64,000 bases of DNA from Oribacterium parvum ACB1 (GTDB lineage Bacteria > Bacillota > Clostridia > Lachnospirales > Lachnospiraceae). Positions 12,863-56,035 of this stretch are shown in pieces; the first letter of the stretch is position 1, and every line of letters begins with the position of its first letter. The translations under genes were made by a program, and so were the position numbers. Location: assembly GCF_000238055.2 (NCBI RefSeq), contig NZ_KE148312.1:1422501-1486500 (forward strand), written 5' to 3'. Below the pieces are notes generated by a model that saw only the letters and a list, made by a program, of their open reading frames with translations, was not told where the DNA came from and did not search any database.

Positions 12863-12925
12863 AGAAAAGTAAATGCGAACCAGATTGACGAGTAAAAGAA
12901 TGAAAAAAAGGAATAAAAAAGAAAT

Positions 12926-13037
12926 CGATAAGTCAGAGTGAAGCGATAAGGAAAAGCAAAGCGATAAGTAAAAGCAAAATCGATAAGTGAAAGCAAAATC
13001 GATAAGTGAAAGTAAATCGATAAGTGAAAGCAAAATT
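12926..13037. repeat. 18-19 bp tandem repeats in the trmR-U32 spacer
   Basis: Six degenerate units, each beginning CGATAAG and followed by a purine-rich stretch such as TGAAAGCAAAAT. Units are 18 or 19 bp long. The block fills most of the 198-base spacer and ends 23 bases before the next start codon. Confidence 0.9.
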
Positions 13038-13060
13038 GAAAGAGATAGAAAGTAGAAAGA

Positions 13061-14287
13061 ATGAAAAGAAAAATAGAACTATTGATTCCTGCAGGTTCCA
13101 TGGAGGGGCTAAAGACAGCCATCCATTATGGGGCGGATGCGGTATATATGGGAGGAGAGGCCTTCGGGCTTCGTGCGAATGCCAAGAATTTTACAATAGA
13201 AAGCATGAAAGAGGCTGTTTCCTATGCGCATGAAAGAGGAGTAAAGGTTTATGTGACGGCCAATATTCTTGCGCATAATGAAGATTTACTTCCGATGCGA
13301 GACTATTTTATGGAATTAAAGGCTGTGGGGATGGATGCGGTACTGGTTGCCGACCCGGGTGCCTTTATGCTTGCACGGGAAATTATGCCGGAGGTGGAAC
13401 TTCATATTTCCACGCAGGCAAACAATACGAACTATGAGACCTTCCTTTTCTGGTGGAAGCTTGGAGCAAAGCGTGTAGTTTGTGCAAGAGAGCTTAGCCT
13501 TCAGGAAATCAGGGAGATTCGAGAGCATATTCCGGAGGAAATGGAAATAGAAGCCTTCGTACACGGTGCGATGTGTATGTCCTATTCCGGTCGCTGTCTT
13601 CTTTCCAGTTTTTTTACAGGGAGAGATGCGAACCAGGGAGCTTGTACACACCCCTGTCGCTGGAAGTATTCTCTTATGGAGGAGAAGCGTCCCGGAGAGT
13701 ATTATCCTGTTTTTGAAAATGACAGAGGAACCTATATATTTAATTCTAAAGATTTAAATATGATTTCGCATATTCCGGACCTTGTTGAAGCGGGGATAGA
13801 CTCGCTAAAGATTGAGGGAAGAATGAAGACGGAGCTCTATGTGGCGACGGTAACCCGAACCTACAAGATGGCGATTCGGGATTATCTGGAGGATCCCAAG
13901 AAATACGAAGCGAATATCCCCTTTTATGAAGAGGAAATCCGAAAGTGTACTTACAGAGAATACAGTACCGGCTTTTACTATCGTAAGCCGATTGAAGAGG
14001 ACCAGATATACGGCAATAACAGCTACAGTGCCGGTGCAACCTATCTCGGTACGGTAGAAAATGTTGAGGGAGATTGTGCTTTCCTCACCCAGAAAAATAA
14101 ATTTTCCGTGGGAGAAGAGATTGCCATTATGCGTCCCGGAGAGAGAGACATTTTTACCAAAGTCCTCAGTATGGAGGATGCGGAAACCGGAGAAAGTCTG
14201 GAATCCTGCCCTCATTCGAAGCAGCCTTTGAAGATTCGCTTTTCCGTTTTACCGGAAAAACAGGATGTTTTACGAAGAATGGAGTAA
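13061..14287 (+). CDS. U32 family peptidase (TrhP/YrrO-like, tRNA U34 hydroxylation)
   Basis: A 408-residue member of peptidase family U32. The family signature EAFVHGAMCMSYSGRCLLSS is at about residues 165-184, followed by the cysteine-bearing QGACTHPCRWKY. Several U32 proteins (TrhP in E. coli, YrrN/YrrO in Bacillus) act in prephenate-dependent hydroxylation of U34 in tRNA rather than in proteolysis. The immediate upstream trmR supplies the methylation step, so a role in 5-methoxyuridine formation is the best inference. Bacillus has two U32 genes here; this window has one. The C-terminal beta-barrel domain (about 320-400) is present. Confidence 0.9.
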   Translation: MKRKIELLIPAGSMEGLKTAIHYGADAVYMGGEAFGLRANAKNFTIESMKEAVSYAHERGVKVYVTANILAHNEDLLPMRDYFMELKAVGMDAVLVADPGAFMLAREIMPEVELHISTQANNTNYETFLFWWKLGAKRVVCARELSLQEIREIREHIPEEMEIEAFVHGAMCMSYSGRCLLSSFFTGRDANQGACTHPCRWKYSLMEEKRPGEYYPVFENDRGTYIFNSKDLNMISHIPDLVEAGIDSLKIEGRMKTELYVATVTRTYKMAIRDYLEDPKKYEANIPFYEEEIRKCTYREYSTGFYYRKPIEEDQIYGNNSYSAGATYLGTVENVEGDCAFLTQKNKFSVGEEIAIMRPGERDIFTKVLSMEDAETGESLESCPHSKQPLKIRFSVLPEKQDVLRRME

Positions 14288-14290
14288 GCC

Positions 14291-15151
14291 ATGTTCGTCC
14301 TTTTTTTACTCATGGGAATTGCCTCGTTTTTATACTTTGCCTTTCTATTAAGCAGTGCGTCCTATCTTTCTGCTCTTTGGATTTGGTTCCTTTTCGGAAT
14401 TTTGCACCTGTTTTTGGCATTCCTTTATAAAAGACCGTCTCGCTGGAAGAGAAAATCGCTATTCTTCCGCTTTAAGGTATTTTGCCTGACTTCCTATTGT
14501 CTTTTCGTCCTCTTGATTTTTTCTGTTTCTATTCTCTTAAGCCGTTATAAAAAAGGTGAGGAGGACAAGAATCTGGATTATGTTCTTTTGATTGGCTGCG
14601 AGCTGGAAAACAATGCTCCTTCTCCCACGATGTTGCATCGCTTAAAGCTTGCGGTAAAATATGCGGAGGAGAACCCGACAACCCTATTTGTTTTGGTAGG
14701 AGGAAGAGGGCGCCACAGTGCCAGCGCGGAATCCAGCGTAATGTTTCAACGACTTCTTTGGGAGGGGATATCCAGCGATCGTCTTCTAATGGAGTTTTAC
14801 TCTAAAAATACGGAGGATAAAATTCGTTTCGGCTTGAACAGTATTGAAAAATGGATTGAGGAGCGTTATTTGGAAGAGGAGTTAGTACAGAGTGAGAAAG
14901 GGTACTATCCTGAAGACAGTAATTATACTTACCTAAAGGAAGAGTCCTTGGAGTGGGAGGATCGGCCTCCAAACGTTGGCATTATTAGCTCGCAATATCA
15001 GCTTTTTCAATGCGTGCGTTTTGCAGAGAAAGAAAACTCCTTCTATCATTACAGGACCTTGTCTGCGAAGGAGCCGCCGTATCTGATTCCTCATTACTAT
15101 GTAAGAGAAGCAATCACTATTGCAATAAGAAGTATATTCAATCAATTGTAA
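14291..15151 (+). CDS. YdcF family membrane protein (DUF218)
   Basis: A 286-residue protein with three or four N-terminal transmembrane helices (about residues 1-90) and a DUF218/YdcF domain (about 95-286; DYVLLIGCELENN, HRLKLAVKYAEENP, VLVGGRGRHSASAESSVM, ENTxD-like KNTEDKIRFGL, PNVGIISSQYQL). Family members such as ElyC and SanA influence envelope integrity, but the activity is unknown. An insertion of about 35 acidic residues separates the two halves of the domain. It starts 3 bases after the U32 gene stop and is clearly co-transcribed. Alternative function cannot be assigned. Confidence 0.8.
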   Translation: MFVLFLLMGIASFLYFAFLLSSASYLSALWIWFLFGILHLFLAFLYKRPSRWKRKSLFFRFKVFCLTSYCLFVLLIFSVSILLSRYKKGEEDKNLDYVLLIGCELENNAPSPTMLHRLKLAVKYAEENPTTLFVLVGGRGRHSASAESSVMFQRLLWEGISSDRLLMEFYSKNTEDKIRFGLNSIEKWIEERYLEEELVQSEKGYYPEDSNYTYLKEESLEWEDRPPNVGIISSQYQLFQCVRFAEKENSFYHYRTLSAKEPPYLIPHYYVREAITIAIRSIFNQL

Positions 15152-15300
15152 AATGGAATTCCGGAACAGAATTGAAGAACAGAATTGTAAAATGAAATTC
15201 CGGAACAGAATTCCGGAACAGAATTCCGGAAAAGAATTGAAGAACAGAATTGTAAAATGGAATGGAAGAACAGAATTGTAGAACAGAATGGAAGAACGGA
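15144..15300. repeat. Tandem repeats grown from the 3' end of the YdcF gene
   Basis: Interleaved units built on GGAATTCCGGAACAGAATT and AAGAACAGAATTGTAAAATG. The first AATTGTAA is the end of the upstream coding sequence (its last codon TTG plus the stop), so the array begins inside the gene. Confidence 0.85.
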
Positions 15301-15319
15301 TATGGATGCAGTAATGGAA

Positions 15320-15391
15320 CGCATCTGAAAAAAGAGGTATCTGAAAAGACGCATCTGAAAAGAAGTATCTGAAAAGACGCATTTGAAAAGA
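15320..15391. repeat. Short repeats GCATCTGAAAAGA / GTATCTGAAAAGA
   Basis: Five alternating 13-14 bp units built on A(C/G)GCATCTGAAAAGA and GTATCTGAAAAGA. They end 12 bases before the M16C protease start codon, in its 5' leader. Confidence 0.85.
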
Positions 15392-15402
15392 CTATCGAGG
15401 AG

Positions 15403-18334: not shown

Positions 18335-18440
18335 ATTAAGATTTAGAAACGAAAGTGGATTAAGATTTAAAAATGAAAGTGAATCAAGTTTTAGAAATGA
18401 AAGTGGATCAAGATTTATAAGCGAAAGTGGATCAAGGCTT
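18335..18440. repeat. 24-bp tandem repeats upstream of era
   Basis: Four complete units of exactly 24 bp plus a partial one, each a variant of ATTAAGATTTAGAAA followed by YGAAAGTGG. The period is a multiple of three and the units have no fixed stop, so a spurious upstream ATG (18427) appears to extend era. Confidence 0.92.
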
Positions 18441-18477
18441 AGCAAAGCTAGAGCGGTCAAATGAGAGGGAGAATGGC

Positions 18478-19434
18478 ATGAATCAGATTATTGAGGATTT
18501 TTTTGCAAAGGAAAATGGAAATGGAGAAAGCAGGGAGGATATGGTTAAATCCGGCTTTGTCTCTATTGTAGGTCTTCCGAATGCCGGAAAATCCACCCTC
18601 TTAAATGCGCTTGTCGGGCAGAAGATTGCGATTACTTCCAAAAAGGCGCAGACCACAAGAAATCAGATTATGGCAGTCTATGATGATGAGAGAGGGCAGA
18701 TTGTCTTTCATGATACGCCGGGGATTCACAAGGCACAGAATAAGCTCTCCGTCTATATGGAAAGTGTGGCGGAAAAGGCTCTTGGAAACGGAGACCTCAT
18801 TCTTTGGATTGTAGACAGCACGGAGCAGAAGGGAAAGAAGGAGGAACAGATTTTATCCCTCCTTTCCCACAGTAAAAGAAAGATTCTCCTTGTCTTAAAT
18901 AAGATGGACTTACTGGGTGGAGAGGAGGCACTGGAAAGGAAGAAGGCGGAGTATCGGGACTGCCTTCCCTTTGTCGGGATTGTCGGCGTTTCCGCCTATA
19001 AGAACCAAGGCTTAGAGGAACTTCTGGAGACAATTTTCTCCTTCCTTCCCTATGGCCCCCGTTACTATGATGAAGATACGGTAACAGACCTTCCCGTACG
19101 AGAAATTGCAAAGGAACTTATCCGGGAACAGGCCCTCTACAAGCTTGATAAGGAGATTCCGCACGGGATTGCGGTACTCATCGACAGCATGCAGGAGAGG
19201 AAAAACGGAATCTGGGATGTGAAGGCAACTTTGGTATGCGAAAAGGAAAGCCATAAGGGAATCATTATCGGAAAAGCCGGCTGTATGCTGAAAAGCATTG
19301 GTAGCGGTGCCCGCATTCAGATAGAAAAGCTTCTGGAAGCGAAGGTGAATCTTCAGCTTTTTGTAAAGGTCAGGAAGGACTGGAGGGAGAATCCGGCATA
19401 TTTGCAGGAGTATGGTTATAGAGAGCAGAAGTAA
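18478..19434 (+). CDS. era: GTPase Era
   Basis: Essential GTPase that binds the 3' end of 16S rRNA during 30S assembly. G1 is GLPNAGKST (about residues 32-40), G2 region KAQTTRNQI, G3 DTPGI, G4 NKMD, and a C-terminal KH domain (about 235-300) with GIIIGKAGCMLKSIG. The start at ATG 18478 follows GAGGGAG; the upstream in-frame ATG at 18427 lies in the tandem repeats and is unlikely. At 318 residues it is slightly longer than usual because of about 25 residues before the G domain. Followed by recO, as in many Firmicutes. Confidence 0.97.
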   Translation: MNQIIEDFFAKENGNGESREDMVKSGFVSIVGLPNAGKSTLLNALVGQKIAITSKKAQTTRNQIMAVYDDERGQIVFHDTPGIHKAQNKLSVYMESVAEKALGNGDLILWIVDSTEQKGKKEEQILSLLSHSKRKILLVLNKMDLLGGEEALERKKAEYRDCLPFVGIVGVSAYKNQGLEELLETIFSFLPYGPRYYDEDTVTDLPVREIAKELIREQALYKLDKEIPHGIAVLIDSMQERKNGIWDVKATLVCEKESHKGIIIGKAGCMLKSIGSGARIQIEKLLEAKVNLQLFVKVRKDWRENPAYLQEYGYREQK

Positions 19435-19495
19435 AGTGCGCAAGCGTCATAGAACAGCAGAAGCGTCATAGAGCAGCAGAAGCAAGCGTAAAGGG
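19419..19495. repeat. Repeats grown from the 3' end of era
   Basis: The last codons of era (ATAGAGAGCAGAAG-TAA) recur twice downstream as CATAGAACAGCAGAAGCGT and CATAGAGCAGCAGAAGC at about 19-bp spacing. The array fills the first half of the era-recO spacer. Confidence 0.8.
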
Positions 19496-19582
19496 GCAAG
19501 CAGGCGGAAAAGCTTTGGTGAAAATGCAGAAGCAATGAGGAAGTAAAGCGAATATAATGTGTCAGGACAGAGAGGAAGGGTA

Positions 19583-20230
19583 GTGAAGGAAGACTTCGTT
19601 GTGCATGGGGTGGTGCTTTCCGAGCACAGTCAGAGAGAATTCGATAAAAGACTGAGTATTCTTACCATGGAACAGGGGAAAATGACGGTTTGGGCAAGTG
19701 GAGCAAAGCGTCCATCTTCTCCTCTTATGGCAGGGAGCAGGAGCTTTGTCTTTGGCACATTTTCTTTAAAGAAAGGGAAGAGTGGATATAATCTACAGTC
19801 GGTCAAAGTCGATGCCTATTTTGAAGAAATTGCACTGGACTTGGAAATGGCCTGCTATGCAGCTTATTTTTTGGAGTTGGCAGATTTTGTTTCGCAGGAA
19901 AATCTTCCTGCGGAAGAAATGGTCAATCTCCTCTATCTGTCCCTAAAGGCCTTGCTTCATAAGGATCTCCCCAATGAACTGGTGCGGGCCGTTTATGAGC
20001 TGAGAGTCCTGCTTTTGGAAGGAGAGTACAGTGAGCTGCCTCCCCGTTCCCAAAGGAAGGCAGTGCATGATGCTTGGGAACACGTACTTGGAAGCCCCCT
20101 GCAAAAGCTTTATACCTTTACTTTGGAAGAAGGGAGTCTGCGGGATTTTTGTGAAAATGTGGAGCTTCTTACACAAGAAAGCTTCTATAAAGAATTTCGC
20201 AGCATTAAGATATTGAACAGTTTGAAGTAG
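19583..20230 (+). CDS. recO: DNA repair protein RecO
   Basis: RecO mediates RecA loading with RecF/RecR in gap repair. The N-terminal OB fold is clear (VHGVVLSEHSQREFDKRLSILTMEQGK, SGAKRPSSPLMAGS), followed by the helical domain. Most RecO proteins of Firmicutes carry a CxxC...CxxC zinc finger after the segment equivalent to LLLEGEYSE; here that region is only about 18 residues and has no cysteine pair. GTG at 19583 is chosen because family alignment begins there (VKEDFVVHG) behind AGAGGAAGGG; GTG at 19559 would add eight residues. The last seven codons and stop are the first unit of a downstream 21-bp repeat array. Confidence 0.9.
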   Translation: MKEDFVVHGVVLSEHSQREFDKRLSILTMEQGKMTVWASGAKRPSSPLMAGSRSFVFGTFSLKKGKSGYNLQSVKVDAYFEEIALDLEMACYAAYFLELADFVSQENLPAEEMVNLLYLSLKALLHKDLPNELVRAVYELRVLLLEGEYSELPPRSQRKAVHDAWEHVLGSPLQKLYTFTLEEGSLRDFCENVELLTQESFYKEFRSIKILNSLK

Positions 20231-20370
20231 ATATTGAACAGTTTAAAGTGGATATTGAACGGTTTAAAGTGGATATGGAATAGTTTGAAATGGATATGGA
20301 ATAGTTTGAAGTAGAATATATCAAAGTGGAAGTGAAAGAGTTCAAAGTGGAGGTGAAAGAGTTTAAAGTT
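20209..20370. repeat. 21-bp tandem repeats starting inside recO
   Basis: About eight units of 21 bp, each a variant of GATATTGAACAG plus TTTAAAGTG. Unit 1 (20209-20229) is the coding end of recO, including two bases of the stop codon; the later units are non-coding and drift to GAAGTGAAAGAG plus TTCAAAGTG. One unit is shortened by 6 bp. Confidence 0.93.
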
Positions 20371-30100: not shown

Positions 30101-31090
30101 ATGCCCATTAAGGTACAAAACAATTTACCCGCAAAATACATTCTGGAGTCGGAAAATATTTTCGTAATGGACGAAAATAGGGCCATTTCCCAAAATATTC
30201 GTCCGCTAAAGATTGTCATATTGAATCTGATGCCTTTAAAGGAAGATACAGAGCTGGATTTACTTCGTGTACTCTCGAACTTCCCGATTCAAACGGAAAT
30301 CAGTTTTATGAAGGTTTCCACCTATAAATCGACCCATACCAGTTCGAGTCATTTGAATGAATTTTATGTGGAATTTAAAGATATTGAGGCAGACTACTTT
30401 GATGGCTTGATTATTACCGGTGCTCCGGTAGAGAAAATGGAGTTTTCGGAGGTGGACTACTGGGAGGAACTTTGTCAAATTATGGACTGGTCTAAAACCC
30501 ATGTTTTTTCTACCTTTCATATCTGTTGGGGAGCACAGGCGGGACTGTATCACCACTATGGGATACAGAAGGTTCGCTTAGAGAAGAAATTGAGCGGAGT
30601 ATATAAGCACCGCATTTTGCATCGTAAAAAAATGCTGATGAGGGGGATGGATGACGAGTTTTTTGTCCCTCAGTCCCGCTATACCGGTGTGGATGAAGAA
30701 GCTTTAAGGAGCAATAAAGAGCTTTATGTGGTAGCGGACAGCGAGGAGTGCGGAAGCTATCTGATTTTGGCTTGCTCTTCCAGACAGATTTTTGTTACCG
30801 GACACTCGGAGTATGACCGCTATGACCTGGATAAAGAGTATAAGAGGGATTTGGGAAAGGGTTTAAACCCGGATATTCCGGTGAATTACTATCCTGACAA
30901 TGATCCGGAGAAGACGCCGATTCTTTCTTGGCGTTCGGGCTCAAACTGCATTTACAGTAACTGGCTAAACTTTGTATACCAAGAGACGCCTTTCGTCTTA
31001 GAGGAGATGCGTCCGGTAGGAGAGGACAGCTATCTTAGAGAAGATCACAGCAGCGAGCGTGACAGTACAATCAGCAGCAGGAGAAATTAA
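30101..31090 (+). CDS. metA: Homoserine O-acyltransferase MetA
   Basis: 329-residue enzyme of the MetA (homoserine O-succinyl/acetyltransferase) family; acylates homoserine in methionine synthesis. The nucleophile is C142 in HICWGAQAG; NLMPLK, FDGLIITGAPVE and VTGHSEYDRYDL are family blocks, the latter holding the catalytic His and Glu. Most Firmicutes enzymes of this type use acetyl-CoA. No S-box riboswitch is visible; the gene starts 31 bases after the carboxypeptidase. Its last codons (AGCAGCAGGAGAAAT) seed a small downstream repeat. Confidence 0.95.
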   Translation: MPIKVQNNLPAKYILESENIFVMDENRAISQNIRPLKIVILNLMPLKEDTELDLLRVLSNFPIQTEISFMKVSTYKSTHTSSSHLNEFYVEFKDIEADYFDGLIITGAPVEKMEFSEVDYWEELCQIMDWSKTHVFSTFHICWGAQAGLYHHYGIQKVRLEKKLSGVYKHRILHRKKMLMRGMDDEFFVPQSRYTGVDEEALRSNKELYVVADSEECGSYLILACSSRQIFVTGHSEYDRYDLDKEYKRDLGKGLNPDIPVNYYPDNDPEKTPILSWRSGSNCIYSNWLNFVYQETPFVLEEMRPVGEDSYLREDHSSERDSTISSRRN

Positions 31091-31215
31091 GTAACAGGAG
31101 AAACGAAGTAACAGTATAAAAATGAGGCATTATATAAGGATATAAAAGCATCAAAAGAAGTGGTATAAGGAGCGATAAGGAGGAGTATCAAAAGGAATAG
31201 TATAAGGAGCGATAA
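31074..31215. repeat. Repeats grown from the 3' end of metA
   Basis: The coding end of metA (CAGGAGAAATTAAGTAA) is followed by near-copies CAGGAGAAACGAAGTAA and CAG. Further on, the 16-mer GTATAAGGAGCGATAA occurs at 31163-31178 and again at 31200-31215. The rest of the spacer to pepT (to 31319) is purine-rich without other signals. Confidence 0.75.
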
Positions 31216-33374: not shown

Positions 33375-33429
33375 AAAGCTATTCGAAAGAAAATCCCTAA
33401 TACGATAGACATCATAAAACTATAGATAA

Positions 33430-33519
33430 CATAAGAATATAGTACATCATAAGAATATAGCTTAACATAAGAATATAGCTTAACATAAGAATATAGCTTA
33501 ACATAAGAATATAGTACTG
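33430..33519. repeat. 18-bp tandem repeats, five units
   Basis: Five consecutive units of exactly 18 bp: CATAAGAATATAG plus CTTAA in the three central ones (the second to fourth) and TACAT or TACTG in the first and last. The central units are identical, so the array looks recent or unstable. Confidence 0.95.
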
Positions 33520-43856: not shown

Positions 43857-43895
43857 GGAAAACTCCTTAAAATGGAAATAGAAAAAAATAGAAAA

Positions 43896-43973
43896 CAGAA
43901 ATAGAAAAACAGAAATAGAAAAACAGAAATAGAAAAACAGAAATAGAAAAACAGAAATAGAAAAACAGAAATA
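43896..43973. repeat. 14-bp tandem repeat upstream of comEC
   Basis: Five perfect units of CAGAAATAGAAAAA plus a partial unit, ending 40 bases before the comEC start codon (minus strand). Related looser copies extend from 43873 to 43998. Confidence 0.95.
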
Positions 43974-44063
43974 AAAAATAGAAACATAGAAAAACAGAAA
44001 GCGAATCCTGTAGAACTTAGTTCATATCAAGCAATTAGATTAGATCAAGTAAAAATGAAACAA

Positions 44064-53671: not shown

Positions 53672-56035
53672 ATGGATAAGGTACAGGGAAGTACAGATGG
53701 CAGTGAGACTTTGGAAGTAAAGTCAAGTGAACTTGGGGCGGAGAAAGATACAATCAAGAAAGATAAATTCGAGAAAGATACAATAAAGAAAGATACAATC
53801 AAGAAAGATAAATTCGAGAAAGATACAATAAAGAAAGATACAATCAAGAAAGATCAAACCGGATCAAAAGAAATCAAGAAAAAACATCATAAATCGGTTA
53901 AACTTTCTATTAAGTTGTCCATTATCTTGGGACTGATGGCTACGATTGTATTGTCTTTTTTAAATACTGTGGCCATAAAAACAACAAAGAAATATTATTT
54001 CGGTGCGATAGATAAAAATATGTATGATAAGGCCATAGCATCTTCTGAAGAGTTAACCGCCTTGATTTCCAGGATGGATGCCATTTCCACTATCATATAT
54101 AAGGGGATGGATTCTCTAGGAGATGATGCAGCGGATTCATGGAATGTGGTGGACCTGGATAATAAAAAAATCTTTGTAAGCCCCATGGAAGAGGGGATAG
54201 AATTTCGTTCTCGTGTCTTAAGTGCAAGCTTAAGCAGAGCGCAGTATAACAGTGAATCCGTCCTTCTGGATTCTTTAAATGCTTTAATTGAGACGGATGA
54301 AAATGTGATTGGTGCGGGTGTACTTTTTGAGCCGAACGGATTTGTTGACGGGGTAAAAAGCTATGCTCCCTATCTGAATCGCGATGGACAAAAGAATAAA
54401 ACACTGACCAACTCTACTTATGAACAGTATAGCGAAAAGGAATATTATACTGAGGCAAAAGAAAAGCAGCATACTGTTATTACCGATGTTTATGAGGATA
54501 TATTGACCGGAGAAAAAGTAGTCAGTGTGTCTCGCCCCTTGATTTTTAATTCCAAGTTTTTAGGTGTGGTTTTATTGGATATTGATATCAAGCTTTTCTC
54601 ATCCGTTCAACGGGAAGACAGTCGCTTCCCCAGTCTTAGCACACATATTTTGGACGAACACGGAGATATCATTTATTCCGCAGACAGCAGTCAAATAGGA
54701 AAATCCATTTCTGAATTTCTTTCGGAAAAGCAATATGGTGATATAGAAAGCTTAATGGAGAAGGGGGATGCATTTTCCAAAGAAGTGAAGCTTGCAAACA
54801 GAGATGTGAAAAATTATTATTTCGCACCGACCAATGTCCTCGGAAATACTTGGTGGATTACGCTGTCCCTTGCTAAAAAAGAATACTATGCACCGATTGC
54901 CTTTCTTGTTATTTTTGCAACAAGTCTTACAACGGTGATGATTCTTGGCATGGCAATCATCATGTACTTGCTGGTTACGAAGTTTCTTAAGCCTATTGAA
55001 CGGATGGCAAAGCTGAGCAGTATGGTAAGAAAGGGAGATTTCAGCGGAAATGTGAATTATCTTAAGAATGATGAAATCGGTAAAATCGGGAAGGGCTTAC
55101 AGTCTATCATGGAAATGATTCGGGAAATTACCGCTGACTTGAGTGAGAAGCTGGATAAAATGGCAAACGGAGATTTTCAGGTGGACTTCTCCAATGAGGA
55201 GCTTTATCAAGGAGACTTTCATCCGATGCTGGAATCGATGAAGCATATCAGCTACACCTTGAGCGATACCATGCAGGAGATTAAGGAGGCTTCCGAACAG
55301 GTGAGCAGTTCTTCCGATTTGGTTTCCGGAGGAGCACAGTCCTTATCGCAAGGAGCAACGGAGCAAGCCTCTGCTATAGAAGAGCTTTCTGCAAGTATGA
55401 ATGAAATTGCCGATTCCATAAAGAGTACTACGGATAAAGCCGAAGAGGCAAAGCATCTCTCTCAAAAAGCAGGAGAGGCGGTAAAACTCAGTAATGAAAA
55501 GATGGAAGAAATGTCTCGTGCAATGGAAGAAATCACGATAAAATCCAATGAAATCAGTAAGATCATTAAGACCATTGACGATATTGCGTTCCAAACCAAT
55601 ATTCTCTCTTTGAATGCGGCGATTGAGGCTGCAAGAGCGGGAGAGGCGGGAAAGGGCTTTGCAGTAGTGGCTGACGAGGTCGGGAACCTTGCGCAAAAGT
55701 CGGCAAAGGCAGCAAAAAATACCGGCAGCCTTATTGAAGAAAGCAAAAATGCGGTAGAGCAGGGAGCGAAGATTTCCAAGGAAACCGGTGAAGCGCTTTC
55801 GATAGTATACGAGAGAACCGGAAAGATTAACGACATGATATTCGAGATAACCAAGGAGACGGTAAAAGAAGCGGATAATATGCGGCAGCTTACCATCGGA
55901 ATGGATCAAATCTCCTCTGTGGTACAGAATAACTCCGCCACGGCACAAGAATCTGCAGCGGCATCCGAAGAGATGTCCGGACAGGCAAATATCTTGGACA
56001 ATCTGGTATCCAGATTTAAGCTTCGTTCCTCATGA
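53672..56035 (+). CDS. Methyl-accepting chemotaxis protein with repeat-bearing N-terminus
   Basis: 787-residue transmembrane chemoreceptor. Unusual cytoplasmic N-terminus of about 75 residues, Lys/Asp rich with the 15-residue repeat [15 protein letters not shown] twice. Then TM1 (about 77-98), an extracellular Cache-type sensor (about 100-405), TM2 (about 407-430), HAMP, and a signalling domain with the conserved hairpin [22 protein letters not shown]...[13 protein letters not shown] (about 640-680). No C-terminal CheR-binding pentapeptide. Shine-Dalgarno AGGAGG. No flagellar or che genes are in the window; the ligand is unknown. Confidence 0.93.
53747..53855 (+). repeat. 45-bp in-frame tandem repeat within the chemoreceptor gene
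   Basis: Two identical 45-bp units (53747-53791, 53792-53836) plus a 19-bp partial third. Each unit codes for [16 protein letters not shown] length change of one unit keeps the frame. Confidence 0.95.

Follow-up and report, generated by a model that had tools for sequence, protein, structure and literature searches.

The tandem arrays that open with the last codons of a gene in Oribacterium parvum ACB1 are very probably the expected harmless class among tandem duplications occurring throughout the genome, rather than the outcome of a process specific to gene ends. The apparent copying of gene ends gives way to a simple selection filter, in which a duplication does no harm across a stop but does across a start. 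Arrays will therefore appear seeded from 3' ends wherever a genome has many tandem duplications, an appearance that can mislead readers of array-rich genomes. This explanation is carried by placement statistics, by the lineage specificity of the arrays, by their frame behaviour and by the ancestry of the first recO unit, with strand slippage as the probable source of the duplications and with neutrality, which we infer from the placement.

Tandem duplications of about 10–50 bp would arise all over the genome, probably when replicating strands slip between short direct repeats, and some of them would be extended by further rounds into minisatellite arrays. Their survival would be set by selection: within genes only in-frame duplications would persist, those across start and ribosome-binding regions would be removed, and intergenic ones would be tolerated. 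A duplication containing a stop would be tolerated as well, the downstream gain being redundant sequence alone, because the ribosome terminates at the first stop as before and makes the same protein; arrays opening with the last codons of a gene are thus to be expected. The tolerance of stops is a geometric property, for which no mechanism is required.

Arrays at gene ends and elsewhere in the window

Tandem Repeats Finder (TRF) gave 38 rows for the window, the whole analysed stretch of 64,000 nucleotides from the 2.47-Mb genome G000, with unit matches of typically 73–91%. In the sequence-only reading, four arrays had been described as copied from gene ends, at recO, a YdcF-like gene, metA and era, and three of these descriptions were borne out. 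The coding end of recO (RecO_N/RecO_C in Pfam; 19559–20230, plus strand), including its TAG stop at 20228–20230, forms unit 1 of a 21-bp array of 5.1 units that begins at 20208 in TRF (20208–20315, plus strand), with GATATTGAACAGTTT occurring exactly at 20209 and 20230, and a diverged second 21-bp sub-array is found at 20308–20369 (plus strand). The end of the YdcF-like gene (DUF218 in Pfam; 14291–15151, plus strand; stop TAA at 15149–15151) opens an array with periods of 13, 26 and 39 bp (15144–15297, plus strand), although the gene contributes just its last 8 nt (AATTGTAA), which occur again downstream of the gene end at 15183 and 15248. The metA end (homoserine O-succinyltransferase family in Pfam; 30101–31090, plus strand) is repeated after its stop in a 17-bp duplication of two copies only (31078–31114, plus strand), where CAGGAGAAATTAAGTAA at 31078 is followed by CAGGAGAAACGAAGTAA and the TAA stop at 31088–31090 lies within unit 1 and not at the end of the unit. 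For era (GTPase plus KH domain in Pfam; 18427–19434, plus strand), the two recurrences of the gene end that had been placed at 19450–19490 proved to be near-copies and not exact ones: the end ATAGAGAGCAGAAG occurs exactly only once, at 19418, one extra base is present in each of the later copies ATAGAACAGCAGAAG (19449) and ATAGAGCAGCAGAAG (19468), and the 19-bp array of 2.2 copies (19442–19483, plus strand; TRF start 19442), which nearly copies the era end but has 1 nt inserted, begins 8 nt past the era stop.

Other arrays of the window were not seeded by a gene end, such as an 18/37-bp array 60 nt past the upstream stop (12922–13078, plus strand); a 14/28-bp array about 170 nt past the YdcF-like stop (15319–15392, plus strand); a 24-bp array 26 nt past the stop of an M16C peptidase gene (18338–18436, plus strand); an 18-bp array about 850 nt past the nearest upstream stop (33405–33517, plus strand); and a 14-bp array, given without strand, lying 5' of a gene on the minus strand and not at a gene 3' end (43886–44000). 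Within coding DNA, a 45-bp in-frame repeat of 2.5 identical copies was observed at 53742–53854, early in a reading frame of 787 aa.

When the intergenic DNA within 1.66 Mb of G000 was taken together with 30 nt at the gene ends, 117 intergenic arrays were counted at a TRF score of at least 60, against 0–3 in five dinucleotide-preserving shuffles, and head-to-tail repeats of 10–100 bp are in this respect far above chance, as minisatellites (VNTR-like) are. Elsewhere in the genome, a 350-bp two-copy duplication (G000:C1:1355712–1356438) opens within the final 18 nt of a gene of 131 codons, the end of which is similar to ribosomal protein S9, and takes in the terminator-like sequence behind that gene.

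Placement of arrays around stops and starts

The placement of arrays around stops was compared with a null in which the start of the duplication is uniform, from one unit before the stop (stop included) up to the point at which the array reaches the next gene. Arrays overlapped 39 of the 146 stop edges (27%) in the 1.66 Mb of G000 against 33.7 expected (P = 0.11), leaving 73% of the edges without overlap, and 17 of the 75 stop edges in the sister species (G012) against 15.3 expected. At scores of 40, 50, 60, 80 and 100, the observed and expected stop overlaps were 40/37.5, 39/33.7, 34/26.9, 23/19.4 and 14/13.5 in G000 and 18/16.1, 17/15.3, 16/14.2, 7/10.6 and 6/7.7 in G012. Only one of these ten tests fell below 0.05, that of G000 at a score of at least 60 (P = 0.04), and arrays may accordingly have a weak preference for stops, of about 1.2-fold, with which this result is compatible. 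Genes were called by a simple hexamer model, which places the stops of long frames reliably but starts less so, and the start edges called in this way were strongly depleted of overlaps, with 6 against 24.8 expected in G000 and 2 against 12.8 in G012, and with 11 against 28.5 in G000 at the lowest score threshold.

A model-free profile was taken as the share of 15-mers having a near-copy 10–60 nt downstream, in 15-nt bins around stops and starts. This share was 0.6% at −30 to −15 relative to the stop, and 2.0, 2.3, 2.4, 2.0, 2.4, 2.5 and 1.9% in the successive bins from −15 to +90, so that the profile stays level from the gene's final 15 nt onward to +90 and shows no peak of 15-mer repetition at the gene end; on the start side, repetition climbs only gradually with distance from the start. 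The periods of stop-overlapping arrays were distributed over the three phases as 16/14/9, and the reading of the arrays as extended coding sequence was rejected because their periods do not favour multiples of three. Within coding DNA, array periods were multiples of three in 95 of 107 cases, as were those of all 26 exact coding duplications.

The sequence-only reading had gene ends seeding arrays as a rule, in which case first units should overlap upstream stops above chance, and proposed a mechanism at gene ends, for example replication-transcription collision, behind them. The overlaps and the flat profile do not bear this out, as uniform placement predicts the overlap observed. A trigger at gene ends, whether termination, R-loops or collision, that causes stop-proximal DNA to be copied is suggested by the four striking cases of the window, by the 39 cases in 1.66 Mb and by the slight excess at scores of at least 60, but it is very unlikely, given that no excess was found at the remaining thresholds or in G012, that repetition does not change across stops and that only about a quarter of the array-adjacent stop edges are overlapped. 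Collision in particular is unsupported because array density is equal behind head-on and co-directional genes (63.4 and 61.5 per 100 kb, P = 0.86), in a comparison whose power is limited by head-on intergenic DNA of only 14 kb with 9 arrays.

With regard to duplication throughout the genome followed by selection, the preferred explanation, the match in exact two-copy duplications runs 4.9 nt past one unit on average against 0.74 by chance, with similar behaviour in coding DNA, a figure inflated by duplications nested in older arrays, after whose removal only 7 and 5 cases are left. The excess of microhomology would fit slippage between short direct repeats genome-wide, confounded as it is by the older arrays.

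Ancestry and lineage specificity of the arrays

The C-terminus of recO reads KILNSLK in G000 and RILKSLGS in G012, and in other relatives it resembles ILKTL. It aligns with its orthologues across the codons making up unit 1, indicating that the gene end is the older copy. The proposal that repeats were copied outward from gene 3' ends is thus sound for individual cases such as recO and does not hold in general; the direction is not demonstrable at every locus, because some gene ends differ from their orthologues in the last residues, including that of metA (TISSRRN against TVKSAD). That seeding explains why each array has its own sequence could be retained, since unrelated local seeds suffice. 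The mismatches at metA and at C1:1277721 (IFLRNKA against RISKD) would also suit the reverse order of events, in which arrays came first and their growth, or a frameshift, replaced the C-terminus and left the last codons array-derived; this order is highly improbable, however, as at recO, C1:1610048 (NAAEG), C1:1566919 (KYSDKR), C1:1703335 (NIMRVI) and C1:1822689 (FFY) the alignment of the C-terminus with orthologues reaches the array or continues into it, which makes the gene end the older.

Within the genus, the M16C peptidase gene is followed by era and recO in conserved order, and then by glyS at most loci extending far enough. The M16C-era gap is 168 nt long in G000 and 58 nt in G012, and the era-recO gap 151 and 136 nt, respectively, with another repeat in that of G012; in several relatives, both gaps measure about 5–15 nt. 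In 280 co-directional adjacencies conserved with G012, a gap that carries an array in G000 alone exceeds its G012 counterpart by a median of 107 nt, and one that carries an array in G012 alone is a median of 71.5 nt shorter in G000. In the comparison with G005, gaps with an array in G000 but not in G005 are a median of 139 nt longer in G000. The arrays are lineage-specific by this comparison of gaps between species, and nearly adjacent co-directional genes can drift at least 100 nt apart within one lineage through them. At seven gaps, against 2.6 expected (P = 0.008), both G000 and G012 have arrays, and the units of the two look unrelated, a pattern that suggests permissive gaps and a rapid turnover of arrays. 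An independent origin at the recO gap was also observed in G007 (L190:2130–2176), where an unrelated 20-bp array begins at most 3 nt from the recO end.

Known repeat systems and the SbcCD lead

The closest described case is the tandem repeats of Borg elements (PLoS Biol 2023, PMC9879509), the resemblance being one of behaviour and not of descent. The repeat units of Borgs are A-rich on the gene strand, with 48.4% A, 23.7% T, 17.1% G and 10.8% C (PMC9879509), and the array DNA of G000 in co-directional gaps has nearly this composition on the gene-sense strand (A 0.471, T 0.242, G 0.189, C 0.098), an enrichment in adenine over other intergenic DNA (0.339) that is weaker in G012 (0.387 against 0.349). 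Many independent, recently formed arrays, each with its own unit, occur in both systems, and their intergenic periods are mostly not multiples of three while the genic ones are. The arrays of Borgs contain no errors and have at least 3 units and 50 nt, whereas those of Oribacterium are imperfect, and Borgs are archaeal extrachromosomal elements, whereas the Oribacterium arrays lie on a bacterial chromosome.

Bacterial minisatellites of the MLVA type (VNTRs) are likewise comparable, the Oribacterium repeats being head-to-tail, about 10–50 bp long, mostly intergenic and consistent with slippage; they differ in that many of the arrays are diverged and may be old. Gain of arrays was seen here between species. 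Mycobacterial interspersed repetitive units (MIRUs) are tandem, lie between co-directional genes, can overlap a stop codon and form a single dispersed homologous family. The Oribacterium arrays are also tandem between co-directional genes, and some overlap stops, but the unit consensuses compared vary from array to array. They are probably ordinary minisatellite growth of the slippage type in an array-rich lineage. A literature search combining Oribacterium with tandem repeats returned no relevant title or abstract.

The richness in A on the gene-sense strand (A 0.47, T 0.24), the location of the arrays mostly between co-directional genes and the parting, through array growth, of genes almost adjacent in relatives would agree with selected regulatory or structural RNA elements behind stops, for example terminators or spacers that uncouple translation, but this is the least probable of the readings, for structured RNA gave no Rfam match in 12800–34000, the units look unrelated among genes and even between species at one gap, and the arrays are placed uniformly.

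Beyond the question of gene ends, the density of intergenic arrays per 100 kb of intergenic DNA is 54.6 in G000 and 59.6 in G012, against 18.6 at other Lachnospiraceae loci, and 3.4 and 33.5 in the 200-kb samples of G005 and G007, respectively; no array was found at the single G001 locus examined. Among 17 Oribacterium genomes, sbcC and sbcD are both absent only from G000, G012 and G001 and are present side by side in the other 14; since G001 is distantly related to the sister genomes G000 and G012, at least two losses of sbcCD are likely. That loss of the SbcCD nuclease let tandem duplications accumulate in this Oribacterium lineage is a tentative and rather unlikely reading of this correlation within one clade, and arrays are fairly dense in G007 despite the presence of SbcCD; the correlation is nonetheless a testable lead on why certain lineages build up arrays. 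Loss of mismatch repair and loss of single-strand exonucleases were rejected as candidates, MutS-type genes as well as RecJ and XseA having been found in G000, G012, G005, G007 and G004.
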